Shown here in pieces: positions 1 through 39,800 of a stretch of DNA of 64,000 bases. Source of the DNA: Sabellastarte sp. h YS-2021 (Eukaryota; Annelida; Polychaeta; Sabellida; Sabellidae); the NCBI GenBank assembly GCA_964017235.1, contig OZ024929.1, forward strand, positions 106,625,793 through 106,689,792. Reading direction: 5' to 3'. Numbering within the stretch: the first letter of the stretch is position 1; every line of letters starts with the position of its first letter. The position numbers and the translations under genes are program-made. The notes beneath the pieces are model-generated. The model was given only the letters and a program-made list of their open reading frames with translations. It was not told the origin of the DNA and searched no databases.

Positions 1-1190
1 TGTGCCACCTGTCTGTAAGTAATGATCTCCATTGAATGTGAAGTTCATACTGTGTAATACTAGTTTTAGTAAGTCTAGTATAAAATTGGTGATTGGCGTT
101 TTAGTGGGGTCATTTCTAAGTTTCTCTGCAATTGCTAATATTCCTTCATTGTTTGGAATGTTAGTATATAATGAGGAAACATCTAAGGTGCATAATATTG
201 CACCTTCAGGGATTGGTCCAAGTTCTTTTATCTTTTTAATAAAGTCCTGGGTGTCCCTAATGTATGAATTGGTTTTTGGGACATAATCTTTGATGTGTTC
301 ATCAACTAACTTGCTAATCCTGCTAGTGGGGTGGTTAACAGAACTCCAAATTGGTCTGCCTGGTACATTTTTTTTATGGATTTTTGGTAGCATATAAAAC
401 CTTGCTTCAGTGCAGTTGGCTGGGTTAAGGTGCTCGAAATTGTTATCTGAAATCAAGCCTTTTTCTCTCATTTTAGTGAGTGTTTTGGTCACATTTGTAG
501 CTACTTGATCAGTACAGTCCTGCCCAAGTTTAGTATAGAACTTTGAGTCGCTGAGCTGTCTGTACCCTTCTCTTAAGTAATCAGTGGTGTTCATTACTAC
601 TACTGCTGACCCTTTATCAGCTTTTTTAATTACTATTTCAGGGTTCTCTGAGAGTTCTCTCAGACTACTCATTTGCTCCCGTGTCAGGTTTGGTTTCCTG
701 ATCTTTTTAACTTTACTATTGAGAAGAACAATTTTAAAGGACCTTTGGAAAATTTCCAGGGATTGATGTACCCTGTTAGGTTTCCAAGTGCTCTTATCCA
801 CAAAATTCTTATGTATTTTCTGGTAAGGAGAGGTTTCCTCTTCTAAATTCTCAGCCATGAAATTAATTAAATCTATTTCTTGGTCTGATAAATGATCAAA
901 TTGCTGATTGTCATTGTAGAAATGGAATTTCAAACATAATCTCCTGTGAAATTCCTTAAAGTCTGTCCAAATTTTTGCTTTATTTGGGGGTCCTGGTGTA
1001 GGGCAAAAGGTCAGACCTTTTTCTAGGGCTGACATTTGGTTCTCAGTTAAAGTAATGTCAGACAAGTTTATGACTGTGTGACCCACTAGGCTATCCATAG
1101 TTTTACCTTTAGGTAGGATGCCGGGGGGGCTGTTTGAGCCTCCTCCTTAATTTGATTAAGTATCTCATTTAAGTCAGAAGTTGCCATCAT
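1..1190 (-). CDS. Penelope-like retroelement reverse transcriptase, N-terminal part, runs off the left edge
   Basis: Reading the minus strand, an open frame runs from an ATG at 1098 to base 1 without a stop (366 codons). It contains KKADKGSAVVVMN (about 530-620), RFYMLPKIHKKNVPGRPIW (about 345-405) and LDVSSLYTNIPNNEGI (about 150-200). The last is the Penelope-like element (PLE) reverse transcriptase motif A block with its catalytic Asp. PLEs copy their RNA into DNA and reinsert, usually with a GIY-YIG endonuclease, which would lie beyond the window. An upstream ATG at 1190 opens a frame (MMATSDLNEILNQIKEEAQ) that reaches the main frame only if the C run at about 1123-1131 changes length; as read it hits a TAG. 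The element is therefore either slightly broken or initiates at the inner ATG. The class assignment is firm; whether it is active is unknown. Confidence 0.88.
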
Positions 1191-1204
1191 AATATATGTG
1201 GAAC

Positions 1205-1326
1205 TCCAAATATGATTAAATCTAGCCCCTGAAGTGGAAAAAGCCTATCCGCTATGAGCCTCTATTTTAGGGGGCTCATCCGCTAAGAGCCTCTATATTT
1301 GGAGGCTCATCTGCTTAGAGCCTCCC
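1205..1326. repeat. Left inverted array of GAGCCTC hairpins
   Basis: Two hairpins with GAGCCTC-type arms (1256-1277 and 1287-1308) are separated by ATCCGCTAA, and a third GAGCCTC arm lies at 1317-1323. Read outward on the minus strand, the array continues into GCGGATAGG then TTTTT then CAGGGGC, matching the outward plus-strand sequence at 3155-3250. The two arrays form an imperfect inverted pair around the zinc-finger ORF. They may be the termini of a mobile unit or the shared non-coding end of two inverted Penelope-like copies. Confidence 0.7.
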
Positions 1327-1327
1327 C

Positions 1328-2167
1328 ATGTGGTATACATGCTTCATATGTCATAAAACATATGCCCACAAGTGTAACCTGAAAAGACATATTGACACTT
1401 CCCATATGTTGAGAGTACACAAATGCCAACATTGTAACAAGGAGTATAAAAGAAGGGAGTACCTGAACAGACATTTGAAGACAGCCCACAAGGCGCCTTC
1501 AACAACCTATACTTTCGGCAACATTGCGGATTGTGTAACTACAGACAGTTCCCCAGATGTGACACACACTTTTCAACAAGTTACCACATCTGCTGAGGAT
1601 AGTTGGGATGAAGTTGATGCTTTCCTGGAAAACATTGATTTCCACTCCTCTGAGACACCATATCCAGACTCAGTAAATGCATCTACTCACAATTCAACCT
1701 TGGTTTCTACTAATGTCTGCACCCAAACAGACATGTGCACTCTACCTTCTATCAGGAAACCTATACATATAGGGACCAACACTACCCCAGTTATATGTAA
1801 AGATAAGGCTGTCCAAATGGCACCTATCATGATAGATACTGGGAATTCACCACATGTTCTCATGCTGTCCCCCAAGGAAACCATTCAAGGTTGGGATTGG
1901 CCGGTCACCAGTTCGCCTCATACTCCTTTCCTGGACATCCCCTGCTACTACACAGTGGAATACCAAGAAAGGAGAAGAGCTATGGATCTACCAGAGGCAG
2001 TACCCTATCAAGGTGCAACAGAGGAGGAAGACCCATTCCCCCCATATCTTTCTCCAGAACAACCACAATGGGGAACAGTGACCAACAACACCATCCCTGC
2101 ATTCCAACTCGTAGATTTCCTGGACTCCATCTGCTCCAACATTACTCCTCCAATATGTTTTCACTAA
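1328..2167 (+). CDS. Two-finger C2H2 zinc-finger protein, intronless, possibly element-encoded
   Basis: A 279-residue ORF without introns. Two classical C2H2 fingers sit at the extreme N-terminus: C5-C8-H21-H26 and C33-C36-H49-H54, both with the CX2CX12HX4H spacing and a Tyr at the usual aromatic position. They are Lys/Arg-rich, as expected for nucleic-acid binding. The remaining ~220 residues are acidic, Thr/Ser/Pro-rich and probably disordered, with spaced TQTD, GTNTT and AVQM segments. A possible polyadenylation signal ATTAAA lies at 2317-2322. The ORF starts two bases after a GAGCCTC hairpin array and is divergent from the Penelope-like RT, 137 bp away. I do not recognise a specific orthologue. 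The placement suggests an accessory or captured gene of a mobile unit rather than an ordinary host gene, but this is inference. Confidence 0.7.
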   Translation: MWYTCFICHKTYAHKCNLKRHIDTSHMLRVHKCQHCNKEYKRREYLNRHLKTAHKAPSTTYTFGNIADCVTTDSSPDVTHTFQQVTTSAEDSWDEVDAFLENIDFHSSETPYPDSVNASTHNSTLVSTNVCTQTDMCTLPSIRKPIHIGTNTTPVICKDKAVQMAPIMIDTGNSPHVLMLSPKETIQGWDWPVTSSPHTPFLDIPCYYTVEYQERRRAMDLPEAVPYQGATEEEDPFPPYLSPEQPQWGTVTNNTIPAFQLVDFLDSICSNITPPICFH

Positions 2168-3140
2168 ACATTTTGTAATTTATTTTATGCTGTCAATGTC
2201 TATGCATAAGACTGTTACATTGGATATATATATATACTATGAACTGTAATTAACATAATCCTGTTAGTTTTGTTGTGTTCTAGTTTACAACACTATGTAT
2301 ATATGATTTCTCATGCATTAAATGAGATTTTTTCACTGAAAACCAGTATTTTGTTTTTTTTTCTTTGATATGTTTTTTTCATCAAAATTAAAATTTGTTG
2401 ATAATCTCATATCACAAATTATGCGATCAATATGATATCCAAAAATTAGCCTGGTCAAGTGGCCACCACTATTCCTACTTGACCACTTTGTCCAACACAC
2501 TCTATTTTTGAATGTTGCATTTTTGATGGAATTCACGTTAATTTCCACATATGCACCATTTAGCACTCATGTTAACACCTCTAATTTATGGTCAGGTCCG
2601 ATTTTTACAGATTTAAATCATACACCATTAATGATTGACTGTTCTGTAATATACCCACCATCATCAAGTTCCACTTTTTAGAGACCATGAAATCTCTGAA
2701 GTCAGACTGCTATGCAATCACGCACACGCAATTGAGTAAACCTTCACTCCAACTAGACACTTGAGTGACTGTGCTCTCCCAGTGAAATATACTGGATTGC
2801 AATCAAACCCTCACATACTCAAATTTTGAGACCAATTAAAAGTGTATGAGCACCTTTCTGATTTTGGTATAGGGTTAAATAAGTCCTGGCTACTCCCAAT
2901 TACCCCAAATATTTTAGGTGCAATACTTACCTAAAATTCAAACCTTTATAACCATAAACTGGAATATAGGGTTATTATTTAATAGTAAATGACCAAGTTT
3001 ACTTATAAAGTTAGCTATTAACAGTTATTCTTAACCAAGTTAGGACTATCAAAACCTATCCTGGATTGAGAGCTTTTGAATATAAATTTATTCCCCATTA
3101 TAAAATTAAGAATAATGGTTTTAAAGCAAAAAATGACTTT
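2168..3140. other. Non-coding AT-rich stretch between zinc-finger ORF and right inverted array
   Basis: I see no conserved ORF, RNA gene or tandem repeat here. The first ~170 bases are probably the 3' UTR of the zinc-finger ORF. The rest is AT-rich with stop codons in all frames, apart from small unconvincing ORFs. Confidence 0.5.
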
Positions 3141-3154
3141 TTTCAGGATTTTAT

Positions 3155-3250
3155 CCTCCTGAGCCTCCTATAGAGGCTCTATCCGCCGGATGACGGCTCA
3201 TTTTGACGGCTGAAGGCGGATAGGATTTTTGCACCTTAGGGGCAAAATTG
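3155..3250. repeat. Right inverted array of GAGCCTC hairpins
   Basis: GAGCCTC-CTATA-GAGGCTC forms a perfect 7-bp hairpin at 3161-3179. It is followed by an 8-bp stem TATCCGCC/GGCGGATA that encloses two GACGGCT repeats. The outward plus-strand sequence GGCGGATAGG, TTTTT, AGGGGC mirrors the minus-strand sequence at 1205-1326, so this is the partner of the left array. Confidence 0.7.
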
Positions 3251-3263
3251 GGTAAAATCTTCA

Positions 3264-3328
3264 GCCTCTGATGAGAAAATACAATTAGATTTTCGAAATA
3301 TTGCCAAGCATATTGGTCAATATAAGGC
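3264..3328 (+). ncRNA. Hammerhead ribozyme (type I layout)
   Basis: All parts of the hammerhead fold are present in order. Stem I 5' arm GCCT (3264-3267) is followed by core CTGATGA (3268-3274). Stem II is GAAAAT (3275-3280) paired with ATTTTC (3289-3294), with G10.1-C11.1 and an 8-base loop. Core GAAA is at 3295-3298. Stem III is TATTG (3299-3303) paired with CAATA (3318-3322), extendable by CC/GG with one bulged T. The TA cleavage dinucleotide (U16.1, H17) is at 3323-3324, and stem I 3' arm AGGC is at 3325-3328. Every core base required for cleavage is intact, predicting a cut after 3324. Hammerheads of this kind sit in Penelope-like elements and retrozymes. The nearby PLE gene is on the opposite strand, so its parent element is unclear. 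Confidence 0.85.
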
Positions 3329-3414
3329 AGTAGTTATAGGTAACTGCACTTTAGTCACTGCACATATTACTTTTTAATCTTTATGCAAATTTGTATCCAC
3401 TGAAAAGACAACTC

Positions 3415-4600
3415 ACCAAAGCCCATGAATCATCATTTGACCTTGGAAGGAGGGGCCCAAGCTCAAATCTGAGCACATCAAAAGATTCCTAGCCCATGAT
3501 TTCCTATAGGTTGGTTTCACTTTGCAAATCTCTAGGACCAATAATAAGCAAGTTATAAGCAGTTTTAGGTTTGGATATCCTTGTTTGACCTTGAAGGAGG
3601 CGCCCAAGGTCAAATCCGACCACACTAAAATATTCCCATCCCATGATTTCCTATAGGTTGGTTTACCATCCCAAACCTCTAGGACAAATAATAAGCGAGT
3701 TATAAGCACTTTTAAGTTTGGCTATCCTTGCTTAACCTTAAAGGAGGGATACAAGGTCAAATCTGCCAACCCCAAAAGATTCCCAGCCCATGATTTCCTA
3801 TAGGTTGGTTTACCATCCCAAACCTGTAGGACCAATAATAAGTGAGTTATAAGCACTTTTAAGCTGGCTATCCTTGTTTTACCTTGAAGAAGAGGTCCAA
3901 GGTCAAATCAGACCACATCAAAAGATTCCCAGCCCATGATTTCCTATAGGTTGGTTTGGCATCCCAAACCTCTAGGACCAATAATAAGTGAGTTATAAGC
4001 ACTTTTAAGTTTGGCCATCCTCGTTCGACCTTGAAGGAGAGGTCCAAGGTCAAATATGACCACATCAAAATATTCCCAGCCCATTCCTATAGGTTGGTTT
4101 ATCATCCCAAACCTCCGAGACCAATAATAAACGAGTTATAAACACTTTTACATTTGGGTATCCTCGTTTGACCTTGAAGGAACGGTCGAAAGTCAAATCT
4201 AACCACCCAAAAACATTCCCAGGGCAGGATTTCCTATAGGTTGGTTTACCATCCCAAACCTCTAGGACCAATAATAAGCGAGTTATAAGCACTTTTAAGT
4301 TTGGCTATCCTCGTTTGACCTTGAAGGAGAGGTCCAAGGTCAAATCAGACCATATCAAAAGATTCCCAGCCCATGATTTCCTATTGGTTGGTTTACCATC
4401 CCAAACCTGTAGGACCAATAATAAGCGAGTTATAAGCACTTCTACATTTGGCTATCCTTGTTTGACCTTGAAGGAGGGGTCCAAGATCAAATCTGACCAC
4501 ACCAAAAGATTCCCAGCCCATGATTTCCTATAGGTTGGTTTACCATCCCAAAACTCTAGGACCAATAATAAGGGAGATATCAGCACTTTTTATGACTGAC
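3415..4600 (+). repeat. Tandem array E, about 147-bp unit, ~8 copies
   Basis: The unit runs from TTTGACCTTGAAGGAGG through CAAGGTCAAATC, CCCAGCCCATGATTTCC and ACCAATAATAAG to AGCACTTTTAAGTTTGGC. Unit starts at 3584, 4314 and 4461 give a period of 146-147. ORFs across the array on both strands are repeat translations, not genes. The same unit recurs at 28455-28690, 29855-30665 and, diverged, at 48230-48640. Confidence 0.9.
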
Positions 4601-4935
4601 AAAGAAACGCCTGTGGCGGCCATCTTGTTTTTCAAAATGAGGCCAAAAACATTCCCAGTCAAGATTTTGTAATGAGGAACATACCCTGCAAATTTGAGAT
4701 CTCTACCTATAATATCCTTTTGCTTGAGAGGGGCACCAAAAGTTGTTACTGAAAGTCGAAGAAACGCCCGTGGCAGCCATCTTGTTTTTCAAAATGAGGC
4801 CAAAAATATTCCCAGGCAATATATCCTGCAAATTTGAGAAGGCTAGCTATAATATTTTTTTCGTTAGAGCGGTAACAGTGAAATCTCTACACACTGCATC
4901 GGCGGCAGGCACACTGCATCTCTACACCCCTAACT
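4600..4935 (+). repeat. Non-tandem tail of array E with two CGGCCATCTTG copies
   Basis: Two related ~130-bp segments each carry GGC(G/A)GCCATCTTGTTTTTC and an ATTCCCAG segment. The same tail follows array E at 30690-30990 and partly at 28735-28800, so it is part of the same element. Confidence 0.75.
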
Positions 4936-5385
4936 AATGTTCCTACAAAGTATCAACTTTCTACACCTTACAGTTTCTGAGATATAGCCCGGACAAGATT
5001 TTCAAACTCAAGGTCACTACGGCAAGGTCAAAGGTCAAATCAAGGTCATACTATGACGTTGCATACCTACATCCCCTAACCAATGTCCCTACCATGAATC
5101 AACTTCCTACAACTTATGGGTTCTGAGGTATAGCTCGGAAAAGATTTTCAAACTCAAGGTCACTGCGGTAAGTTCAAAGGTCAAATCAAGGTCACACCAT
5201 GACTGCACACCTACACCACCTAACCAATGTCCCTGCCAAGTATCAACTTCCTACACCATACAGTTTCTGAGATACAGCCCGGACAAACTTTTATCATATG
5301 CCCACCCACGAGCCAACCCATCCGGACACCATGACTGAAAGCAAAACCCCGACAGTCCTTACGGGATGTAAAAATGTAAAACACC
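4936..5385 (+). mobile_element. Degraded 3' part of a family G element (145-bp AGGTCA repeats)
   Basis: About three units contain ATAGCCCGGACAAGATTTT, CAAGGTCAC and AAGGTCAAAGGTCAAATC. The 3' end, ACAGTCC...GGGATGT, is a decayed form of the hairpin that ends intact copies at 24582, 58770 and 61846. Confidence 0.75.
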
Positions 5386-6107
5386 ATGCAGGCACAAACA
5401 CAGGCTGCACTTAATAATCATCGGCTTGATGGTGGAGATAATAAGTCAGCTGGAGTTCTCAACTGCTGACAAGGAACTTATTTAAAAGTCTGGTGGAACT
5501 TGGAAAGTTTAATATTAATGAAAATACCATCTAAAAGTATCTTGTTAGTTTATAAACTAATATCTTGTTCACATGTGCAATAATGTGACTCATTGTTTGG
5601 AAATATAACAAACTAGTTATAATAAAAAATTTTATTTACAATTTTCTACATACGTTGATATACAGGCAAGATATATATACCCATACCTGGATACAACAAT
5701 GTTAATGCCGGCAAACAGGTTCTCTTCTTTGAACAGTCTGGCAGACATAGCTGCAATAATTTAAAACAAGTACATGTACATGGTTTGATTGTCAGTAAGA
5801 CTTGTAGCTCCCAGTGAAATAATCTGTGGCACTTGCAGTGGGAAAATGAAACTGTCCTATGTAACAAGTAGTATAATTTTACAATCAATGCCTAAAAGTA
5901 AATATAGAACACTAACCATTTTTCCACTACCTAGGTATTTTCAGAAAAAGTGATAACAACTGACACTACCAAATCATATGTCGTATTTAAGAAATTCTTA
6001 TTTTGACAACGTGAACAGAAAATTGTTTTCAGTACAAAACAGTCAGAAGTAGAAATATATAAAAATCACAATAATCCAAAAAGTTTTACCCACAGAATAT
6101 ATCAAAA
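5386..6107. other. Non-coding unique sequence
   Basis: AT-rich sequence without recognisable coding, RNA or repeat features. An 80-codon minus-strand ORF at 5646-5888 has no recognisable domain. Confidence 0.45.
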
Positions 6108-6429
6108 AACTAGAAATAGGACGCATCTGTGGCCAGATGCTGGATGTATCCACCGACAAAGGCCAACTAACATAGTTTAGAAGATAAAAAGCATTTTTCG
6201 TTAATAAGCAAGGTGAAAGCACTTTTAAGTTTGGCTACCCTTATTTGACCCTGTAGCAGGGGCCCAAGGTGAAGTCTGACCACATCAAAAGATTCGCAGT
6301 CCATGATTTCGTATAAGTCGTTTTCACATTGCAAACCTCTAGGACCAATAATAAGCAGGAGGGGCCCAAGGTGAAATCTGACCACATGAAAAGATTTGCA
6401 GCCCATGACTTCCTCTAAGTTGTTTTCAT

Positions 6430-7580
6430 AATAATGAGTTATTTGTGAAATACTGGCTATCTGCAATACTTGTAGAGATAATTCGCATTTACTCATTTTG
6501 AGTAGGTGAATAATTAGCTACGGGTCTGAAACTTCACCAAGTGAAAGCTCTCTCCAAAGTAGGCAAATGAGTTATTTGAGAAAAATTGGCTATCTACAAT
6601 ACTTTTAGAGATAATTCGAATTTACTCATTTTCAGTAGGCGAGTAATTACCTACGGGTCTGGAACTTCACCATGTGAAAGCTCTCCCAAAAGTAGATGAA
6701 TGAGTTATTTGATAAAAAATTGGATATCTGCAATACTTTTATAGATAATTAGCATTTACTCATTTTGGGTAGGTGAATAATTAGCTACAGGTCTGAAACT
6801 TCACCAAGTGAAAGGTCTCCCAAAAGTAGGTGAAGGAGTTATTTGACAAAAATTGGCTATCTGGAATACTTTTAGAGATAATTTGCATTAACTCATTTTC
6901 AGCAGGTGAGTAATTACCTACGGGTCTGAAACTTCACCAAGTGAAAGCTCTCCCAAAAGTAGGTGAAGGAGTTATTTGACAAAAATTGGCTATCTGCAAT
7001 ACTTTTAGAGATAATTTGCATTTACTCATTTTGAGTAGGTGAGTAATTACCTACAGGTCTGAAACTTCACCAAGTGAAAGCTCTCCCAAAAGTAGGTGAA
7101 GGAGTTATTTGACAAAAATTGGCTATCTGCAATACTTTTAGAGATAATTTGCATTTACTCATTTTGAGTAGGTGAGTAATTACCTACAGGTCTGAAACTT
7201 CACCAAGTGAAAGCTCTCCCAAAAGTAGGTGAAGGAGTTATTTGACAAAAATTCGCTATCTGCAATACTTTTAGAGATAATTTGCATTTACTCATTTTGA
7301 GTAGGTGAGTAATTACCTACGGGTGTGAAACTTCACCAAGTGAAAGCTCTCCCAAAAGTAGGTGAAGGAGTTATTTGACAAAAATTGGCTATCTGCAATA
7401 CTTTTAGAGATAATTCGCATTTACTCATTTTGAGTAGGTGAGTAATTACCTACAGGTCTGGAACTTCAGCATGTGAAAGCTCTCCCAAAAGTAGGTGAAT
7501 GAGTTATTTAAGAAAAATTTGCTATCTGCAATACTTTTAGACAAAATGCAGAATTACTCATTTTTAGTAGGTAAGTAATT
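6430..7580 (+). repeat. 133-bp tandem array inside family B copy 1
   Basis: Unit marks GAGTTATTTGACAAAAATTG, TACTCATTTTGAGTAGGTGA and CTCTCCCAAAAGTAGGTGA recur. Successive GAGTTATT starts at 6969, 7102 and 7235 give a period of 133. Confidence 0.9.
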
Positions 7581-10683: not shown

Positions 10684-13600
10684 AACTAGATTGGGCCAAC
10701 TCGGCGCCAACATATCCCCAGACAGGTCATCACTCACGCCACAGGTTTTGATCGGGAATTTTTAAAAACATAATTACCCATTATTATATGAACTTCAGCA
10801 CATCAATCTACTCTGTTTATATCTTCCCAAGGAAGATGGTGTATCCCCAGACGCCGAATACATAACTCAAATTATATTTTCAATCTTCCTGCAATGATAA
10901 CTCTAAACCTATTTTCAAAGTATTTAAATGATTGACGATTGAATGTCCATTCTAAAATAATAATCCCAAAAGAGCATATCTGTTTCTATATTTGTTGACA
11001 AATAAAATATTCTTTTTAACTCAACTCATCATACTTTTCAATCTTCCTTCAAAGTATTTAAATGATTGATGATTCAATGTCCATTCTAAAATTCATAACC
11101 CCAAAAGCGCATATCTGTTTCTATATTTCTTCACAAATAAAATATTATTTAAAAAAAAATTATTTATATTATTATTTTATTATATTATTTTTAGAATTTG
11201 CAAATTGTTTTCAGTTATTCATTTCCTCTATACCTATATATGTGGTCCATATATATGCAACCTAAATATGTGACACAATCTCAGTTCTGACTCCCCTTTG
11301 TGTTATATGTAATGAAGCCCACCACCTCCCACCCCCACCCCTCTCCCCTTCTCCACACCTCTCTCACTATTACACAAGATCTGTAACCCCATTGAGTTCT
11401 TTGTTTCTCATCTGATATCATTAAATACCTTTGTTTATTTAGTGTCACTCAATATAGCTGGAGGTCCCAGAGGTGGGTGGGGGGAATCCGGGTGGGGGAT
11501 GTGGGTTGGGACTTAGTTTAGTTTATTAGTTTATTATAGTGACATGTATTATGTTTACAAGGATTATACAAAAACTATTGAAGTAATACCCAGCCCTATA
11601 TGGGCTTATAAGTCACTTTAAATAGAGAGTTAATAACAAACAGAGCAAACATATTTTGAGGTAAGATACAGTAAATAAAGACAGCAATTCAATACATAAA
11701 AATTAACAATATAATTTACTTTTTCTTTCTTGCTACAAATCAAAAATAAAATTAATAACCATATTGACATTCATACGAGTTAATACCCTTGATAATTGAT
11801 CTATTAATAATTCAGATTTATCTATATTTAAAATTTTGAAATATTTCATACGAATCAGCTCTAAAGCTGGACAAACACAAACAAAATGTATCTCATCTTC
11901 TACATCTTTTTTACACAGTTTACATGTTCTCTCAAAGAGATGGAGTGCTACAGCATAAATGGTAAACAAACAATCTATATAAAAGGGGTACTCAAATACA
12001 AAAAGAATTGAGAATTTTAAGTATGTGATTATCAACTGAAATGAGTTCATAACTGTAGGAGCTGTGTCAAAATTAACTGAGGCAAGTTGAATAAAACTGG
12101 GCTAGTTGAGGGTTAAAAATCCCCTAGTTTTACTACATACGGATATAATTTCATTAATATTGGGACTTAAAGCTCACTTAAAGTGTCCATTTTGTCTACT
12201 TGAATATGTTTAACCGGCGTTTAACCAGTTTCATTTTAAAAAGTTAAAAACTCAGCAAGCAGAGGTATAACACACAAAAATAAGTTCTTAAAAGACTAAG
12301 AGAGCCATAACATTATTAATATTCAAAATTTAAATAGACAGGCATTTCCTTTTAAAAATTCAAAGATTTCAGCTCTATAACCCACATAGTTTGACAGTTA
12401 CTGGGCTTTAAAGTGGCATAATGTCCATAAATTGGGTTTCTGCGGGCATTTTACAATTGTTAAAGAGACCTTAGCAATTAAACTACAGATCTGAAACTTT
12501 TTGGGGGACATACATAACAAACAAAAATTATATATAATACAGTTTAAGACTTGTCACACTAAGCATTTCCAAATAACAGGGCAAAATACGGAAAAAATAT
12601 CCAAAAAGGCACTTGGGCGAGTGTCTATGGCCCTCATACACAGGTTAAATGTCTACTAAAAACCTTGATTTTCGGCACATGTAAAAAGGACATAATAATG
12701 CATTCCCAGATGGGATTTCAGCTCCATCAATCACATAGTTTAACAGTCACAGGGCTTAAAGGTGGCAAAAAGTCCAAATATTGGGTCTCTGTGGGCCTTT
12801 TAGAGATCTCGATGTGGCTTTCAAATTAAAGCTTCAGACTTAAAATTTGTTACATACTAAGATTACACATAGAATATGTATCTAATAAAGTTTGAAACTT
12901 CTCAGACTTAGCATTTCCAAGTTACAGAGCAAAATATGTGAAAAATGTCTTAAAAGGGTCACTCAGGTGGGTGTTTAAGGTCCTCATACACAGGTTAAAT
13001 GTCTACTTGAAGCCTTGATTTTTGGCACATGTAAAAAGAACATAGTAATGTATTCCCAGATGAGATTTCAGCTCTATCAGTCACATAGTTTAACAGTCAC
13101 AGGCCTTAAAATTGGCAAAAAGTCCAAATACTGGGTCTTTATGGGGCCTTCTAGAGACCTAAATGTGGCCTTCAAATTAAAGCTTCAGACTTAAAATTTG
13201 TCACATACTAAGATTACACATAGAATATGCATCTAATACAGTTTGAAACTTCTTAGACTTACCATTTCCAAGTTACAGGGCAAAATATGTGAAAAATGTC
13301 TAAAAATGGTCACTTGGGTGGGGATTTATGGTCCTCATACACAGGTTAAATGTCTTCTTAAAGCCTTAATTTTTGACACATATATAAATAACATACTAAT
13401 ATCTTCCCAGATAGGATTTGAGCTCTATCAGTCACATAGTTTGACAGTCACAGGGCTTAAAAGTAGCAAAAAGTCCAAATATTGGGTCTTTGGGAGCCTT
13501 TTAGAGACCTCAATTTGACCTTCAAAATTAAAACTTCAGACTTAAAATCTGTTACATACTAAGATTACACACAGAATATATATCTAATACAGTTTGAAAC

Positions 13601-14398
13601 TTCTCAGACTTACCATTTCCAAGTTACAGGGAAAAAGATGTGAAAAATGTCTTATAAGGGTCACTCGGGTGGGTGTTTATGGTCCTGATACACAGGTTAA
13701 CTGTCTATTAAAGGCCTAAATGTTGGGGCACATATAAGAAAACACATAGATATATTCCCAGATGATATTTAACTTAGATGAGAGACATAGTTTGAAAGCT
13801 ACAGTGCTTGAAAGTGGCAAAAAGTGCATAAATTGGGTCTCTGTGGGCACTTTTGAGACCTTAAGTCGACCCCTTTGGGTAAACCTACAGCCCTAAAATT
13901 TTCTACAGACAAGGATTACCTATCAAAGTTATACCTAGCGCAGTTTGAGACTCATCAGAATTACCACTTCCAAATTATAGGGCAAAATATGTGAAAAGTA
14001 TAGCAAAAAATCCCTAAGTGGGGGTAGTTATGGGCCTCAAACACAATTTTCTCCTCAACTTAAAGTCGTGATTTTCGGCACATGTACTAAGAACATATTA
14101 ATGTGTTGTCAGGTAAAATTTCAGCCAGCTGAGCATCATAGTTTGTGACCTACAGGGCTCTAAGTGGCCAAAAGTCCAATTTCTGACCTTAAGGTAGCCA
14201 TAAGTTCTTTTTTACTGGGAGTTTAAGGTCACCTTAAAATAGGGATCTTCCTTTGGGCACCCTTAACATGTGTACCAAGTTTGTAAAAAAAATATTAATT
14301 TGTTTTTGAGTTATCGCGTCCAGAAGGAAATTTCTACGGCGGCGGCGGCGCGACGGACCTGAATCCAATATATCCCCGACTTTCGTCTGGGGATATAA
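10684..14398 (+). mobile_element. Family A element, copy 1 (Helentron-like, non-autonomous)
   Basis: The 5' end is AACTAGATTGGGCCAACTC. TATCCCCAGAC occurs at 10713-10723 and again at 10842-10852, both complementary to the 3'-terminal GTCTGGGGATA (14385-14395). The 3' end is a hairpin TATCCCCGAC-TTTC-GTCTGGGGATA. A 350-bp unit is repeated about five times (markers at 12383, 12732, 13082, 13433, 13784, 14134). A CGG run (4 units) precedes the hairpin. A LINE 3' fragment is embedded at about 11513-12050. Asymmetric inverted ends, a 3' hairpin and a tandem core match Helentron-associated elements. No Rep/helicase is present. Confidence 0.82.
11513..12050 (-). pseudogene. LINE 3' end fragment (C-terminal zinc knuckle) captured in family A copy 1
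   Basis: The minus-strand ORF 11733-12050 encodes FERTCKLCKKDVEDEIHFVC..CP, the CX2C-(E)DEXHF-CP zinc-knuckle tail found after the reverse transcriptase of many non-LTR retrotransposons. It is followed by a 3' UTR ending in TAAACTAATAAAC-type repeats near 11513-11540. The 5' part is missing, as in most LINE insertions. A TAG ends the frame at FDL, where copy 3 reads on as FDLWQERKSKLYC. Confidence 0.7.
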
Positions 14399-15430
14399 TG
14401 ATGCAGATATTTAGTGCTTGAGGACTTTGTACCAGTGACCTGTGGAAGTAATTCCTCAAACGTGGTGGGAGATTTCATGGTTATAAACCTCATAATTTTT
14501 CCGAGGATGGCAACATCAAAATTCCATCAACAGGAATTAAAAACAGAGGACATGTAGCATTAAAAATAAACATAGAAAGCATATCACATTCAAATCACAA
14601 CAAACATTTTTTAAAAACAGTGTTAGTTGACACAATCTAGGCTCATCTACAAATATGTACAAATATCTTAACTATGTTGTTAATAACACCACAATTAATA
14701 GTAATATTCTGTGGTCCCCTAATTATTTTAGTTTCGCTATTATTATCTTTTTTGAGAGACAAAGAGACCATCTCCTTGTTAATAATAACAAAGTTGCAGC
14801 TTTGTGGAAACATTAAGTTACTGTAATGTAGCTTTAGTCACATGAAAAGTTAGAAAATAGCAGTATCTACATGACATATGCAACCAAGCATTTTCCCCTG
14901 AAATCTCAAAATCTCTTGGTATGACGTGAAAAGCATGGTTACATCGTTTTCCTGTGATATATACACAGAGCATTGGTCATCAATTAAGTACCAATCAAGA
15001 TTTTATCTATGAGGAAATGAACGATAAAAAAATTGACTCAAGTGTATATAAAATAAAGAGTTGGCAGAAAAATAGCAGTGTTAACAAAAGGTTAGTGTGA
15101 TAGCTGTACTATATTTATAAATTTACAGCACAAAACATAAAGCAAGTTATCAACACAGTAAGACTTGTCACCATCACACTCAATGACACAACTACAAAAG
15201 CAGTATCACTAAGACATCACCAGCAATATATAATCTCATCATGGGGAAAACATTAACAAATGACATGTTTTTTTTTTCTTCCAGTAAGTTATTATCATTC
15301 AATAAAAATAAGGAGTCAAATATAAAGACTTGAAACTGTGCATGTTTTAATTTTGATAACATCAGTATCTAGTTTCATTTGGAATAAAACATTGTGAAGC
15401 AGAACTAAAATTCAGGTGATTGAAAATATG
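14399..15430. other. Non-coding unique sequence
   Basis: AT-rich, no recognisable gene or repeat family seen. Confidence 0.45.
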
Positions 15431-24200: not shown

Positions 24201-27200
24201 GCCTGAACAAGATTTTATAGGTCAAGGTCACTACAGCAATGTCAAAGGTCAAATCAAGGTGAGACCATGACATTGCACACCTACACCCCCTAATCAATGT
24301 CCCTACCACGTATCAACTTCCTAGATAATACGGTTCCGAGATATAGCCCGGACAAGATTTTCAAACTCAAGGTCACTACGGCATGGTCAAAGGTCAAATC
24401 AAGGTCAGACCATGATGTTGCACACCTACACATCCTAACCAATGTCCCTACCAAGTATCAACTTCCTACACATTACGGTTTCTGAGATACAGCCTGGACA
24501 AACTTTTTCCCGCCGCCCGCCCATCCGGACATCATGGATGAAAACAATACCCTGACAGCCCTTAAGGGCTGTGGGGTAATAAGATAGATGCTTTAAAAAT
24601 AGAAGAAATAAAGGGGCCAGACAGTTTTATTCCAATTTTATGACTTTAGGGGGACCATAGCATCAGGATAATCCTTTGGTAAATCTAACTAGATTGGGCC
24701 AACTCGGCGCCAACATATCCCCAGACAGGTCATCACTCACGCCACAGGTTTTGATCGGGAATTTTTTAAAACATAATTACCCATTATTATATGAACTTCA
24801 GCACATCAATCTACTCTGTTTATATCTTCCCAAGGAAGATGGTGTATCCCCAGACACCGAATACATAACTCAAATTATATTTTCAATCTTCCTGCAATGA
24901 TAACTCTAAACCTATTTTCAAAGTATTTAAATGATTGATGATTGAATGTCCATTCTAAAATAATAATCCCAAAAGAGCATATCTGTTTCTATATTTGTTG
25001 ACAAATAAAATATTATTTTAACTCAACTCATCATACTTTTCAATCTTCCTTCAAAGTATTTAAATGATTGATGATTCAATGTCCATTCTAAAATTCATAA
25101 TCCCAAAAGCGCATATCTGTTTCTATATTTGTTCACAAATAAAATATTATTTAAAAAAAAATTATTTATATTATTATTTTATTATATTATTTTTAGAATT
25201 TGCAAATTGTTTTCAGTTATTCATTTCCTCTATACCTATATATGTGGTCCATATATATGCAACCTAAATATGTGACACAATCTCAGTTCTGACTCCCCTT
25301 TGTGTTATATGTAATGAAGCCCACTACCTCCCACCCCCACCCCTCTCCCCTTCTCCACACCTCTCTCACTATTACACAAGATCTGCAACCCCATTGAGTT
25401 CTTTGTTTCTCATCTGATATCATTAAATACCTTTGTTTATTTAGTGTCACTCAATATAGCTGGAGGTCCCAGAGGTGGGGATAAATGGTAAACAAACAAT
25501 CTATATAAAAGGGGTACTCAAATACAAACAGAATTGAGAATTTTAAGTATGTGATTATCAACTGAAATTAGTTCATAACTGTAGGAGCTGTGTCAAAATT
25601 AACTGAGGCAAGTTGAATAAAACTGGGCTAGTTGAGGGTTAAAAATCCCCTAGTTTTACTACATAAGGATATAATTTCATTAATATTGGGACTTAAAGCT
25701 CACTTAAAGTGTCCATTTTGTCTACTTGAATATGTTTAACCAGTTTCATTTTAAAAAGTTAAAAACTCAGCAAGCAGAGGTATAACACACAAAAATAAGT
25801 TCTTAAAAGACTAAGATAGCCATAACATTATTAATAATCAAAATTTAAATAGACAGGCATTTCCTTTGAAAAATTCAAAGATTTCAGCTCTATAACCCAC
25901 ATAGTTTGACAGTTACTGGGCTTTAAAGTGGCATAATGTCCATAAATTGGGTTTCTGTGGGCATTTTACAATTGTTAAAGAGACCTTAGCAATTAAACTA
26001 CAGATCTGAAACTTTTTGGGGGACATACATAACAAACAAAAATTATATATAATACAGTTTAAGACTTGTCACACTAAGCATTTCCAAATAACAGGGCAAA
26101 ATACGGAAAAAATGTCAAAAAAGGCACTTGGGCGAGTGTCTATGGCCCTCATACACAGGTTAAATGTCTACTAAAAACCTTGATTTTCGGCACATGTAAA
26201 AAGGACATAATAATGTATTCCCAGATGGGATTTCAGCTCCATCAATCACATAGTTTAACAGTCACAGGGCTTAAAGGTGGTAAAAAGTCCAAAGTCGATG
26301 TGGCTTTCAAATTAAAGCTTCAGACTTAAAATTTGTTACATACTAAGATTACACATAGAATATGTATCTAATAAAGTTTGAAACTTCTCAGACTTACCAT
26401 TTCCAAGTTACAGAGCAAAATATGTGAAAAATGTCTTAAAAGTGTCACTCAGGTGGGTGTTTAAGGTCCTCATACACAGGTTAAATGTCTACTTGAAGCC
26501 TTGATTTTTGGCACATGTAAAAAGAACATAATAATGTATTCCCAGATGAGATTTCAGCTCTATCAGTCACATAGTTTAACAGTCACAGGCCTTAAAATTG
26601 GCAAAAAGTCCAAATACTGGGTCTTTATGGGGCCTTCTAGAGACCTAAATGTGGCCTTTAAATTAAAGCTTCAGACTTAAAATTTGTCACATACTAAGAT
26701 TACACATAGAATATACATCTAATACAGTTTGAAACTTCTTAGACTTACCATTTCCAAGTTACAGGGAAAAATATGTGAAAAATGTCTAAAAATGGTCACT
26801 CGGGTGGGGATTTATGGTCTCATACACAGGTTAAATGTCTTCTTAAAGCCTTAATTTTTGGCACATATAAAAATAACATACTAATATCTTCCCAGATAGG
26901 ATTTGAGCTCTATCAGTCACATAGTTTGACAGTCACAGGGCTTAAAAGTAGCAAAAAGTCCAAATATTGGGTCTTTGGGAGCCTTTTAGAGACCTCAATT
27001 TGACCTTCAAAATTAAAGCTTCAGACTTAAAATCTGTTACATACTAAGATTACACACAGAATATATATCTAATACAGTTTGAAACTTGTCAGACTTACCA
27101 TTTCCAAGTTACAGGGAAAAAGATGTGAAAAATGTCTTATAAGGGTCACTCGGGTGGGTGTTTATGGTCCTGATACACAGGTTAACTGTCTATTAAAGGC

Positions 27201-27820
27201 CTAAATGTTGGGGCACATATAAGAAAACACATAGATATATTCCCAGATTATATTTAACTTAGATGAGAGACATAGTTTGAAAGCTACAGTGCTTGAAAGT
27301 GGCAAAAAGTGCATAAATTGGGTCTCTGTGGGCACTTTTGAGACCTTAAGTCGACCCCTTTGGGTAAACCTACAGCCCTAAAATTTTCTACAGACAAGGA
27401 TTACATATCAAAGTTATACCTAGCGCAGTTTGAGACTCATCAGAATTACCACTTCCAAATTATAGGACAAAATATATGAAAAGTATAGCAAAAAATCCCT
27501 AAGTGGGGGTATTTATGGGCCTCAAACACAATTTTCTCCTCAACTTAAAGTCGTGATTTTCGGCACATGTACTAAGAACATATTAATGTGTTGTCAGGTA
27601 AAATTTCAGCCAGCTGAGCATCATAGTTTGTGACCTACAAGGCTCTAAGTGGCCAAAAGTCCAATTTCTGACCTTAAGGTGGCCATAAGTTCTTTTTTAC
27701 TGGGAGTTTAAGGTCACCTTAAAATAGGGATCTTCCTTTGGGCACCCTTAACATGTGTACCAAGTTTGAAAAAAAAATATTAATTTGTTTTTGAGTTATC
27801 GCGTCCACAAGGAAATTTCT

Positions 27821-27857
<37 letters not shown>

Positions 27858-30800
27858 GACGGACCTGAATCCAATATATCCCCGACTTTCGTCTGGGGAT
27901 ATAAATATATATGCCAAGTTTGGTTGAAAAAAAGTGAAAAACTAAGTGAACTGGAGGGCTAAAACCCCCCCTTTTCGACATTAAGGTGACCTTGAGATTG
28001 CAGATACAGGGCTAAAAACTTCGGCATGTGAAAGATTATCAAAAAGTAGCTTAATAAGTTATTCCAACAAAATGCCGAAATCCTGAACGTTTTTGAGATA
28101 CAAAGTATCCATTTTTAAAAAATTTACGAAACTGAAATGTCTTCCATCTAGGCATCTATGGTCCGATTGATCAAAAATTCCTTTCCGACCTGCGGATTTA
28201 GGTCTAGAATGTACCTGATAAATTTTATAGCACAGGTGTGTGTCTTTTTTCCCGAAACGCGATGACAGGGTGTTTTTGAAAAATGCTTAAGGTTATCTTA
28301 AGTAGAGCTTAAGGTCTCCGCAAAGTATCCCAAAATTTTTTTCCGCCCCTATAGTTTTAAAGAAAGATAAGAAGGAAAGAAAAATTTGAAAGCCCAAGAA
28401 GTTATTCAAGGGAGACCATAATCCTCTGGCGGCGGTAATTAAACTTATATGAAAACGAATAAGCAAGTTATAAGCACTTTTAAGTTTGGCTATCCTCGTT
28501 TGACCTTGAAGGAGGGGCCCAAGGTCAAATCCGACCACACCAGATGATTCCCAGGCCATGATTTCCTATGTGTTGGTTTACCATCCCAAACCTCTAGGAC
28601 CAATAATAAGTGAGTTATAAGCACTTTTACGTTTGGCTTTCCTCGTCTGACCTTGTAGAAGGGTCCAAGGTCAAATCTGACCACATCAGAAGATTCGCAG
28701 CACGATTTTCCTTTGTTGTAATTTTCAAAGAAATGCCCGCAGCGGCCATCTTGTTTTTCAGAATGAGGCTAATTTCAGTCCCAGAGAAGTTTACCTCCAA
28801 TGAAGATATACTGCAAATTTGGTGAACCTAGGTGGTGTAGTTTTCCTCTGAGAGCGTTAACGCCGAAAATCTCTACACGTGGCTGTGGCGTAGCGAACGT
28901 TAAACCAAAGTATCCACCGGATGCCTCCGGCACACAAATACATGTATTTTGCAGCATTTACATCACTTATGTTGTAAAATAAAATGATTAATTTATATGA
29001 AAGATTATGGTTATTGATATTGATGAAGAGAAGAGCCTTTAATGAAAAATACGAGCTTTCATATCTAGGATTAAATTCATCCTTGATGAATTCTGTCTTT
29101 AGCTATAGCCAGCCCATATAGATCGTATCAGTAATTTAAGTTCAAAAGGGGGATCCCATCCTCGATGGAAATATTTCCAGAGATTATCAAACTTTAGTAC
29201 ATATTACGACATAACTGTGTCATACATTGTTATTTGACAGAAAATCAAACTCATATAATATAATGTAATACATATTGCTACTTGTGTTTGGAGAAATCAC
29301 TAATGGATGTATTACCTAAACGTCTCTTCCGATTTATTTTAATTTTGTTTGCATCCATATTTATCTTTTAAATGCCTACCATATGACCGCAATATTTTTG
29401 TCTGCTACCGAAGAATCTGTGTGCTCGATTCTGTCTCAACCAACAGAAAAATTCTTTACAGTTGAGTTCACGCATGCGCATTGACAACTCATCATCTAGT
29501 CAGCTATTCTCTTCATGCATTGGATCCGCATTTGGGTGTAGTAAACTTCTACTATATACCGCACTGTAGTTTCAAAATCGTGTCAGATTTTTAAACAAGA
29601 GGAGAGTGCCCGCACTGTGTCAGCTGACTGAGTGTTTTTGATTTGTGAAGGTAATAATGAGAGGATAGCATAATTATCAAGGAAAGTGCTGTACAGAAGT
29701 ACAGTAAATGGTAATTGAACAGCATGTTCAAAAGAAATTCTGAACCTGACAGAAAAGTTTTGCCCTGCAAATGGTATTATGAAGGAAAGTAACAAGGTAA
29801 CTGTTTAAGTGTAAAGAGTAGGTTAAAACATATTTAAAGAAATACTGAAAATCCAACCACACAAAAACATTCCCAGCCCATGATTTCCTATAGGTTGGTT
29901 TACCATCCCAAACCTCTAGGACCAATAATAAGCGAGTTATAAGCACTTTTAAGTTTGGCTGTCCTTATTTGACCTTGAAGGAGGGGTCCAAAGGTCAAAT
30001 CTGACCACACCAAAAGATTCCCAGCCCATGATTTCCTATAGGATGGTTTACCATCCCAAACCTCTAGAACCAATGATAAGCGATTTATAGGCACTTTTAA
30101 GTTTGGCTATCTTTGTTTGACCTTGAAGGAGGGGTCCAAGGTCAAATCTGACCACACCAAATGATTCCCAGCCCATGATTTCCTGTAGGTTGGTTTACCA
30201 TCCCAAACCTGTAGAACCAATAACAAGCGAGTTATAAGCAATTTTAAGTTTGGCTATCCTCAACTGACCTTGAAGGAGGGGTCCAAGGTCAAATCGGACC
30301 ACACCAAAAGAATCCCAGCCCATGATTTCCTATATGTTGTTTTACCATCCCAAACCTCTAAGACCAATAATAAGCGAGTTATAAGCACTTTTAAGTTTGG
30401 CTATCCTCGTTTGACCTTGAAGAAGAGGTCCAAGGTGAAATCGGACCACATCAACAGATTCCCAGCCCATGATTTCCTATATGTCTGTTTACCATCCCAA
30501 ACCTCTAGGACCAATAATAAGTGACTTATAAGCACTTTTAAGTTTGGCTATCCTCATTTGACCTTGAAGGAGGGGTCAAAGGTCAAATCTGACCACACCA
30601 AAAGATTCCCAGCCCATGATTTCCTATAGGATGGTTTTCCATCCCAAACCTCTAGGACCAATAATAAGGGAGATATAAACACTTTTCATGACTGACAAAG
30701 AAGCACCTGTGGCGGCCATCTTGTTTTTCAAAATGAGGCCAAAAATATTCCCAGTCAAGATTTTATAATGAGAAACATATCCTGCAAATTTGAGATCTCT

Positions 30801-36800: not shown

Positions 36801-39800
36801 GCATGGAGTTTCTGGTAGACTACTTATACTATAACCCAATTTGCCAATGAGATGAATTGAAATGCAATACACACCAACACAGTTTATCCATTACAATTTG
36901 TTAAAAAGTGAATTACTTGGCAATATTTGTTACATTTAAGCCGGGGAGTCCAGGCAGTTAGTGGAGTGATGCACACATGATGAACAGAGTGCTAAAGAGT
37001 CATCCACCAACTAGATTGGGCCAACTCGGCGCCAACATATCCCCAGACAGGTCATCACTCACGCCACAGGTTTTGATCGGGAATTTTTAAAAACATAATT
37101 ACCCATTATTATATGAACTTCAGCACATCAATCTACTCTGTTTATATCTTCCAAGGAAGATGGTGTATCCCCAGACGCCGAATATATAACTCAAATTATA
37201 TTTTCAATCTTCCTGCAATGATAACTCTAAACCTATTTTCAAAGTATTTAAATGATTGATGATTGAATGTCCATTCTAAAATAATAATCCCAAAAGAGCA
37301 TATCTGTTTCTATATTTGTTGACAAAATATTATTTTTAACTCAACTCATCATACTTTTCAATCTTCCTTCAAAGTATTTAAATGATTGATGATTCAATGT
37401 CCATTCTAAAATTCATAATCCCAAAAGCGCATATCTGTTTCTATATTTGTTCACAAATAAAATATTATTTAAAAAAAATTATTTATATTATTATTTTATT
37501 ATATTATTTTTAGAATTTGCAAATTGTTTTCAGTTATTCATTTCCTCTATACCTATATATGTGGTCCATATATATGCAACCTAAATATGTGACACAATCT
37601 CAGTTCTGACTCCCCTTTGTGTTATATGTAATGAAGCCCACCACCTCCCACCCCCACCCCTCTCCCCTTCTCCACACCTCTCTCACTATTACACAAGATC
37701 TGCAACCCCATTGAGGTCTTTGTTTCTCATCTGATATCATTAAATACCTTTGTTTATTTAGTGTCACTCAATATAGCTGGAGGTCCCAGAGGTGGGTGGG
37801 GGGAATCCGGGTGGGGGATGTGGGTTGGGACTTAGTTTAGTTTATTAGTTTATTATAGTGACATGTATTATGTTGACAAGGATTATACAAAAACTATTGA
37901 AGTAATACCCAGCCCTATATGGGCTTATAAGTCACTTTAAATAGAGAGTTAATAACAAACAGAGCAAACATATTTTGAGGTAAGATACAGTAAATAAAGA
38001 CAGCAATTCAATACATAAAAATTAACAATATAATTTACTTTTTCTTTCTTGCCACAAATCAAAAATAAAATTAATAACCATATTGACATTCATATGAGTT
38101 AATACCCTTGATAATTGATCTATTAATAATTCAGATTTATCTATATTTAAAATTTTGAAATATTTCATACGAATCAGCTCTAAAGCTGGACAAACACAAA
38201 CAAAATGTATCTCATCTTCTACATCTTTTTTACACAGTTTACATGTTCTCTCAAAGAGATGGAGTGCTACAGCATAAATGGTAAACAAACAATCTATATA
38301 AAAGGGGTACTCAAATACAAAAAGAATTGAGAATTTTAAGTATGTGATTATCAACTGAAATGAGTTCATAACTGTAGGAGCTGTGTCAAAATTAACTGAG
38401 GCAAGTTGAATAAAACTGGGCTAGTTGAGGGTTAAAAATCCCCTAGTTTTACTACATACGGATATAATTTCATTAATATTGGGACTTAAAGCTCACTTAA
38501 AGTGTCCATTTTGTCTACTTGAATATGTTTAACCGGCGTTTAACCAGTTTCATTTTAAAAAGTTAAAAACTCAGCAAGCAGAGGTATAACACACAAAAAT
38601 AAGTTCTTAAAAGACTAAGATAGCCATAACATTATTAATATTCAAAATTTAAATAGACAGGCATTTCCTATTAAAAATTCAAAGATTTCAGCTCTATAAC
38701 CCACATAGTTTGACAGTTACTGGGCTTTAAAGTGGCATAATGTCCATAAATTGGGTTTCTGTGGGCATTTTACAATTGTTAAAGAGACCTTAGCAATTAA
38801 ACTACAGATCTGAAACTTTTTGGGGGACATACATAACAAACAAAAATTATATATAATACAGTTTAAGACTTGTCACACTAAGCATTTCCAAATAACAGGG
38901 CAAAATACGGAAAAAATGTCCAAAAAGGCACTTGGGCGAGTGTCTATGGCCCTCATACACAGGCTAAATGTCTACTAAAAACCTTGATTTTCGGCATATG
39001 TAAAAAGGACATAATAATGCATTCCAAGATGGGATTTCAGCTCCATCAATCACATAGTTTAACAGTCACAGGGCTTAAAGGTGGCAAAAAGTCCAAATAC
39101 TGGGTCTCTGTGGGCCTTTTAGAGATCTCGATGTGGCTTTCAAATTAAAGCTTCAGACTTAAAATTTGTTACATACTAAGATAACACATAGAATATGTAT
39201 CTAATAAAGTTTGAAACTTCTCAGACTTACCATTTCCAAGTTACAGAGCAAAATATGTGAAAAATGTCTTCAAAGGGTCACTCAGGTGGGTGTTTAAGGT
39301 CCTCATACACAGGTTAAATGTCTACTTGAAGCCTTGATTTTTGGCACATGTAAAAAGAACATAATAATGTATTCCCAGATGAGATTTCAGCTCTATCAGT
39401 CACATAGTTTAACAGTCACAGGCCTTAAAATTGGCAAAAAGTCCAAATACTGGGTCTTTATGGGGCCTTCTAGAGACCTAAATGTGGCCTTCAAATTAAA
39501 GCTTCAGACTTAAAATTTGTCACATACTAAGATTACACATAGAATATGCATCTAATACAGTTTGAAACTTCTTAGACTTACCATTTCCAAGTTACAGGGC
39601 AAAATATGTGAAAAATGTCTAAAAATGGTCACTCGGGTGGGGATTTATGGTCCTCATACACAGGTTAAATGTCTTCTTAAAGCCTTAATTTTTGGCACAT
39701 ATATAAATAACATACTAATATCTTCCCAGATAGGATTTGAGCTCTATCAGTCACATAGTTTGACAGTCACAGGGCTTAAAAGTAGCAAAAAGTCCAAATA

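Follow-up and report, generated by a model that had tools for sequence, protein, structure and literature searches.

The 64,000-nt stretch of Sabellastarte sp. DNA analysed here, hereafter called the window, carries on its forward strand a motif that is very probably the type I hammerhead ribozyme of a tandem Penelope-like family, lying in the leader of the family's ORF1 and placed to cut read-through RNA at the equivalent of position 3324. A first-pass annotation had already read an intact hammerhead fold here. That reading is supported by the copies of the motif in the same genome, by the absence of matches to the reversed pattern and by covarying stems; the membership of the motif in a retroelement was absent from the annotation.

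Structure of the hammerhead motif

Direct reading and a descriptor scan both place all invariant core bases of a hammerhead, together with stems of 4, 6 and 9 bp, on the forward strand at 3264-3328 (Table 1). The residues named as core criteria in the available excerpts of PMC3088659 (C3, U4, G5, A6, N7, G8, A9, G12, A13, A14, A15, U16 and H17) all occur in the motif by both reading and scan, with A3298-T3323 as the A15.1-U16.1 pair and A3324 as H17. The earlier assignment of CTGATGA, GAAA and U16.1-A15.1 proved to be correct base for base, and the same holds for the strand, the coordinates and the position of the predicted cut after 3324. All three stems that it had reported as present were found by the scan, and two of them, stems II and III, also covary. 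The pairs adjacent to the core (T3267-A3325, G3275-C3294 and A3298-T3323) are intact, leaving no mispair next to the core; a single bulge interrupts the 9-bp stem III, and multiple bulges in short stems are absent from 3264-3328.

Just outside the four pairs of stem I, CA/AG is kept (3262-3263 and 3329-3330 in the window) in the window family and likewise in its distant relative at locus L185. This arrangement places an A-A mismatch and then a C-G pair next to stem I, a possible extension of helix I.

Table 1. Features of the hammerhead motif and of the surrounding element in the window.
Feature	Position	Strand	Basis
Type I hammerhead ribozyme motif	3264..3328	+	reading, scan; core and all 19 pairs in 43 of 50 distinct copies; covariation
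Stem I 5' arm GCCT, partner 3325-3328 (4 bp)	3264..3267	+	reading, scan
Core box CTGATGA (C3-A9)	3268..3274	+	reading
Stem II, 6 bp: 3275-3280 / 3289-3294, loop 3281-3288	3275..3294	+	scan; copies differ at loop sites 3281, 3287, 3288
Core box GAAA (G12-A15.1)	3295..3298	+	reading
Stem III, 9 bp: 3299-3303 / 3318-3322 and 3304-3307 / 3313-3316, loop 3308-3312	3299..3322	+	scan
Stem III bulge T3317; 3311 and 3317 differ among copies	3299..3322	+	scan, copy comparison
U16.1 and H17 (T, A); predicted cleavage between 3324 and 3325	3323..3324	+	reading, scan
Stem I 3' arm AGGC, start of the predicted 5'-OH product	3325..3328	+	reading
Penelope-like piece: C2H2 ORF, spacer, repeat motif, hammerhead	1328..3384	+	88.7-95.9% identity to compared units
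ORF with C2H2 zinc fingers	1328..2167	+	Pfam zf-C2H2, E 4.8e-08
Inverted piece of the same element, start of RT/GIY-YIG ORF	1..1329	-	94.3-98.7% identity to compared units
Hairpin-rich motif before RT ORF	1219..1309	-	71.6% identical to 3160-3249
Same hairpin-rich motif before hammerhead/ORF1	3160..3249	+	both copies co-oriented in intact L141, one per ORF
Rest of ORF1 leader	3329..3384	+	homology to intact copies stops 15 nt short of their ORF1 ATG

Chance expectation and covariance models

When both strands were scanned with the descriptor, the only three-stem hammerhead motif in the window was that at 3264-3328 (+), and it was still alone when 3 bp sufficed for each stem. At 4/4/4 bp, the window has just four further three-stem arrangements around a 7-base core of whatever sequence. 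In 180 Mb of order-3 Markov sequence, three matches at two places were obtained at 4/4/4 bp with CTGANGA. The chance rate was 8.3e-5 per 64 kb at 4/4/4 with narrower loop limits and CTGATGA, and 0.011 per Gb at the observed strength of 6, 9 and 4 bp (four of 37.6 million anchored cores). Reversed sequences gave no match in 1.03 Mb of loci and none in the window. By itself, the folding energy of 3250-3345 is ordinary (z -0.99). The comparative evidence, that is, genome matches and covariation, is a stronger test than the chance scan.

Rfam returned no gathering-level match anywhere in the window, and RF00163 (Hammerhead_1), run on 101 bases, did not report the motif up to E = 10; the best score of the motif with a hammerhead-family model of Rfam was 12.9 bits (RAGATH-1). 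The controls were at least 120 hammerhead-bearing stretches of viral contigs, in which 174 type I motifs were found in 113 loci (94 non-redundant). At gathering scores, Rfam recovered none of 14 viral-contig control loci, and with RF00163 one type I control reached 22.7 bits, under the cut-off of 34. The same model gave no match in the motif's own genome, but its control matched in 0 of 14 genomes, which makes this search uninformative. Because all 14 control loci were missed and controls fell under the cut-off, the silence of Rfam is weak evidence and was dropped as an arbiter. The Infernal search with a type I model, proposed in the first-pass annotation as a check and, if negative, as one half of its refutation, came out without a gathering match, but a check that misses all of its control loci says little about the motif.

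Two further models were built, R1 from 36 viral-contig seed sequences and R2 from 100 matches found by R1. With R2 the motif ranks first of 19 window matches (16.1 bits, rough E 0.06), and 66 of the 68 control matches score at least 31.7 bits, well over the motif. R1 missed the motif in the window as long as filters were on. Run on 131 bases with the filters switched off, it scored the motif at 10.7 bits, below every one of the 100 control matches listed (15.1-74.2 bits); seven of these lie under 25 bits, and some of the seven may be something other than hammerheads. The controls for R1 and R2 are partly dependent, since the 36 seeds of R1 come from the very control loci that were searched.

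Constraint and covariation among genomic copies

The genome scanned for copies comprises 1.786 Gb in 647 contigs. A pattern made of the core, GAAA and the stem I 3' arm gave 802 matches (386 + 416), and the backward pattern gave none (0 + 0). Covariation was examined in 45 distinct sequences, 44 from the matches listed, which cover chromosome C1 and part of C2 only, and that of the window; pairing was counted over the six positions nearest the core in each stem. Stem II pairs in 231 of 270 cells, as compared with a mean of 172.9 and a maximum of 199 in 2000 shuffles, and stem III in 225 of 270 cells (shuffled mean 177.3, maximum 195; 2000 shuffles). The shuffles ignore kinship and the significance is therefore overstated; the actual evidence lies in two-sided changes at the same pairs, and across the 45 sequences the same pair indeed alternates between A-U, U-A, C-G or G-C. 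The search pattern fixed the first pair of stem II and the stem I 3' arm, where covariation is uninformative. A group of nine of the 45 sequences, which carry a GATGAT arm, pairs poorly in stem II.

For a comparison among close copies, 78 matches spanning 3240-3360 were reduced to 50 distinct ones, with partial-motif matches left out. Inside the motif, variants shared by at least three copies occur at five sites, three in loop II (3281, 3287 and 3288), one in loop III (3311) and the bulge at 3317. All five thus fall among the 14 loop or bulge sites and none among the 51 sites that make up core and stems (hypergeometric P 2.4e-4), the 13 core sites included, while shared variants are present at 6 of 95 flanking sites. 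Rarer variants, found in one or two copies, hit the core at 3 sites, the stems at 4, the loops at 2 and the flanks at 10, as is to be expected in dead copies. The core and all 19 stem pairs are retained together in 43 of the 50. Together with the genome matches and the covariation, this same-genome comparison shows that selection keeps the hammerhead fold.

Beside controls with a 4-bp stem I, pairing of loop II (3283-3287) with 3331-3335 as a pseudoknot seemed promising, but it is unconserved among the copies. No tertiary contact was demonstrable when this candidate was checked across them.

A Penelope-like element carries the ribozyme

With positions 3240-3435 as query, the genome yielded 40 scored places out of 1,906 candidates, 95-100% identical to the query. 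All except the window itself stop at the equivalents of 3377-3392, and several lie in inverted pairs. The structure of the element was derived from seven extracted genomic regions. At L141, units follow one another head to tail with a period of 7,165 bp, each in the order C2H2 ORF, about 1.1 kb, hammerhead, ORF1, and RT and GIY-YIG frames, before the C2H2 ORF of the next. ORF1 of L141 begins with MSVSDTALS; that of the first unit is broken by an insertion. A second subfamily is represented by L182, in which successive cut sites lie 6,034 nt apart and a single open frame of 822 aa (L182:1832-4297) contains RVT_1 (E 2.3e-07) and GIY-YIG (E 4.3e-05). Its ORF1 has 271 residues and no Pfam match, and its C2H2-finger ORF has 314 residues. 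In the intact units of L142 and L182, the C2H2 ORF comes after the RT/GIY-YIG ORF and ahead of the hammerhead of the next unit. At L146, RVT_1 (E 1.2e-07) and GIY-YIG (E 1.1e-05) are recognised in two stretches parted by a stop.

The leader between the cut site and the ATG of ORF1 measures 75 nt at seven junctions (two each in L141 and L182, one each in L142, L143 and L145). An inverted copy in L143 has the hammerhead without an ORF1 behind it. L185 is a divergent relative, whose ORF1 is 50% identical over 268 residues and whose RT stretch is 73% identical over 644, as judged from a 3-kb piece that stops short of its GIY-YIG and C2H2 regions. Its hammerhead, with different stem II and stem III sequences and one A-A mismatch in stem II, stands 73 nt ahead of the ORF1 ATG.

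A single frame that joins RT to GIY-YIG, together with partial copies both tandem and inverted, is described as Penelope-like organisation in the available parts of PMC6431247 and PMC3846280. Both kinds of partial copy (pLTR organisation) are present here, in periodic form at L141 and L182 and as inverted pairs elsewhere. Judged by its RT/GIY-YIG domain pair and by this organisation, the element is Penelope-like. A search of the viral contigs with the RT protein gave eight pattern stretches and no relative among them; window-specific patterns matched nothing in the viral or genome contigs, and the PDB search found nothing.

In intact L141, a hairpin-rich motif of the form GAGCCTC...GAGGCTC, GCGGATAGG, stands ahead of the leader with the hammerhead and ORF1 and again ahead of the RT ORF (around 2606 and 5004). 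It is possible that this motif is a shared promoter or translation element.

The copy in the window is a rearranged remnant

In the window, the RT part of the element is inverted with respect to the ribozyme part, and the homology to the element ends at 3384, 52 bp ahead of a 147-bp satellite array. The RT/GIY-YIG ORF of the inverted piece runs on past the left edge of the window. The two hairpin-rich stretches (1219-1309 and 3160-3249) were considered as terminal inverted repeats of a DNA transposon; this idea was dropped in view of intact L141, where they have the same orientation and each precedes one ORF.

Because core and stems are intact, the window copy may be capable of cleavage in vitro, and it is plausible that its ribozyme is still active, as had been suggested earlier. 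Position 3212 is occupied in 24 of the aligned copies, by C in 23 of them and by G only in that of the window. G3212 lets 3209-3216 pair with 3259-3266, so that the stem I 5' arm can pair upstream. In a -64/+72 context, the cost of the ribozyme fold is 6.5 kcal/mol for the window copy and 4.1 kcal/mol at five intact-unit sites; 8 of 91 controls cost at least 6.5 kcal/mol in secondary-structure energy. With 150 nt of upstream sequence the order flips (2.5 kcal/mol for the window copy, 3.5-4.1 kcal/mol at the five intact sites), and the folding penalty of G3212 is therefore context-dependent.

Proposed role and insertion ends

The fold, its position and its constraint are established by comparison among copies; cleavage, its timing and the use of the products are inferred. 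RNA that reads across head-to-tail units (6,034 and 7,155 nt from cut to cut in the two arrays measured) would be cut after the equivalent of 3324. Cleavage would leave a 5'-OH RNA with the 75-nt leader ahead of ORF1, and a read-through transcript would in this way be split into unit lengths starting just before ORF1.

We then considered where copies end. Among 58 ribozyme-bearing matches not truncated by the end of a locus, none stops at the cut site, although the sampling query (3240-3435) reached past the cut and was biased against copies ending there. Thirty stop at the equivalents of window positions 3377-3389, that is, 53-65 nt past the cut, 8 about 190 nt inside ORF1, 15 at the end of the query and 5 elsewhere, with overlapping loci counted more than once. 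No 5' start at 3325 was seen in 19 cases. The copies reaching ORF1 include 20 regions taken for part of 40 places (of 240 candidates) with a query starting at the cut. The lack of ends at the cut suggests that the RNAs reverse transcribed into the sampled copies were apparently uncut at the 3' ribozyme, and from the end positions reverse transcription seems to begin on uncut RNA, about 60 nt past the ribozyme. The apparent use of uncut RNA agrees with the Anolis element, for which unprocessed RNA is given as the main substrate in the available part of PMC11167929. It may be ORF1 expression or the 5' end, and not the template for insertion, that cutting serves.

The shared 3' end about 190 nt into ORF1 was found at L134, L136, L138, L139, L147, L148, L150 and L153. 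It may represent a second reverse-transcription start, or a Penelope 'tail'.

Alternative explanations

A chance resemblance that satisfies the hammerhead descriptor is very improbable. Loose thresholds do give a few motifs per 1.79 Gb (the 4/4/4 rate above), and a gathering match in Rfam is absent; however, chance does not account for 802 genome matches against none reversed, nor for the constant place of the motif before ORF1 even in diverged elements, and the covariation of both stems II and III refutes it. Still more remote are two readings in which the stretch is something other than a ribozyme. A C/D-box snoRNA comes to mind since CTGATGA includes the C box TGATGA, stem I looks like a terminal stem and snoR11 has the best raw Rfam score (20.3 bits), but this score is far under the cut-off of 50, direct reading finds no CTGA (D box) in 3275-3330, and the stems that covary are those of a hammerhead. 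Equally remote is part of a protein-coding exon: an open stretch of 45 codons spans the motif in one forward frame, yet it matches no Pfam family up to E = 10 and the shared variation tracks the RNA fold.

A different case is a true fold that is kept mainly for a role other than cleavage, such as being recognised by the element's RT close to where reverse transcription begins; cleavage in vivo would then be weak or absent. We regard this as possible but unlikely; it overlaps with the ribozyme reading, since fold and element are the same and only the use differs. The ends 53-65 nt past the cut in 30 of 58 matches, with none at the cut, would suit it, as would the lack of a demonstrable tertiary contact. 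On the other hand, the 13 core sites are free of shared variants in all 50 copies, and a fold alone would presumably not need all of the catalytic bases. The preferred explanation is still a self-cleaving type I hammerhead in the ORF1 leader.

Comparison with known systems

The hammerheads of Penelope-like elements (PLEs) and Terminons resemble the motif in their type I core, in the tandem or inverted copies with RT and GIY-YIG, and in adjoining the start of the first ORF. In the excerpts available of PMC6155905, PMC7761336 and PMC7229834, PLE hammerheads are described as minimal, usually without helix III or loop contacts. In contrast to the hammerheads so described, helix III has 9 bp here, and ORF1 is a separate frame whose ATG follows 73-75 nt after the cut. 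PLEs are said to combine RT and GIY-YIG in a single ORF, or else to lack GIY-YIG and have two ORFs (PMC6431247, in part), whereas the two kinds of unit that were read completely here (L141/L142 and L182) consist of ORF1, an RT/GIY-YIG ORF and a C2H2 ORF. No published Penelope hammerhead with a full helix III was found in the open-licence literature, and a published case may exist elsewhere. Relative to the literature covered, which was seen in excerpts, the elements appear to differ in the full helix III, in the place upstream of an ORF1 that is a frame of its own, and in the layout with three ORFs; PLE hammerheads as such are already known. Rfam RF00163 shares core and topology with the motif, yet, as noted above, does not report it.

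Metazoan non-LTR retrozymes likewise have type I hammerheads in low-GC head-to-tail repeats. They are non-coding repeats of about 150-450 bp with one hammerhead per monomer, whereas the window motif comes from a protein-coding element 6-7 kb long. According to the accessible part of PMC7229834, expressed retrozyme RNAs measure 170-400 nt and the elements themselves are non-autonomous. The Sabellastarte genome also has a 1,242-bp hammerhead-to-hammerhead unit without element genes, described below. With its near-identical copies, full helix III, intact 822-aa RT/GIY-YIG frame and short tandem units that carry a related motif, the Penelope-like family described here is a testable system for asking what use the ribozyme is to Penelope-like elements and whether such elements mobilise retrozyme-like RNAs.

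Short tandem units

Hammerhead matches also occur on one strand at spacings of 1.2-2.0 kb (C1:160970322-160976246, C1:156803348-156806812 and C2:44211283-44214362), too close for a 6-kb element. One such unit was read, at L186, where two motifs lie 1,242 nt apart from cut to cut. It contains no open frame of more than 66 codons on the ribozyme strand and, in tblastn at E up to 1, nothing similar to the ORF1, RT/GIY-YIG or C2H2 proteins of the element. Core and AGGCAG arm are the same as in the element; none of the 45 sequences has a more poorly paired stem II (2 of 6 positions), which makes the activity of L186 doubtful. L186 looks like a retrozyme-like, non-autonomous partner, though stem II is weak.

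In a wider scheme, the full-stem hammerhead would act as a monomer that releases unit-length 5'-OH RNAs, a host tRNA ligase would circularise them, and the short units would be partners moved by the RT of the element. We hold this scheme to be rather improbable, its probability being lowered by the poor pairing of stem II in L186. If true, it would tie retrozyme-like units to a proposed autonomous helper within one genome.

Neighbouring repeats

Beside hammerhead copies at L147 lies a second retroelement (517-1470 and 4179-6650, minus strand), which has an 824-residue frame with RVT_1 (E 7.6e-08). Its other frame has no Pfam match and ends in YTFHAFRRLFGL, an ending reminiscent of a tyrosine recombinase of DIRS-like elements. 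Within the window, segments about 96-99% identical recur at 10684-14399, 24687-27904, 37009-40720 and 44041-47873, comprising satellite arrays and their flanks; these long segments look as if they arose by recent segmental duplication.
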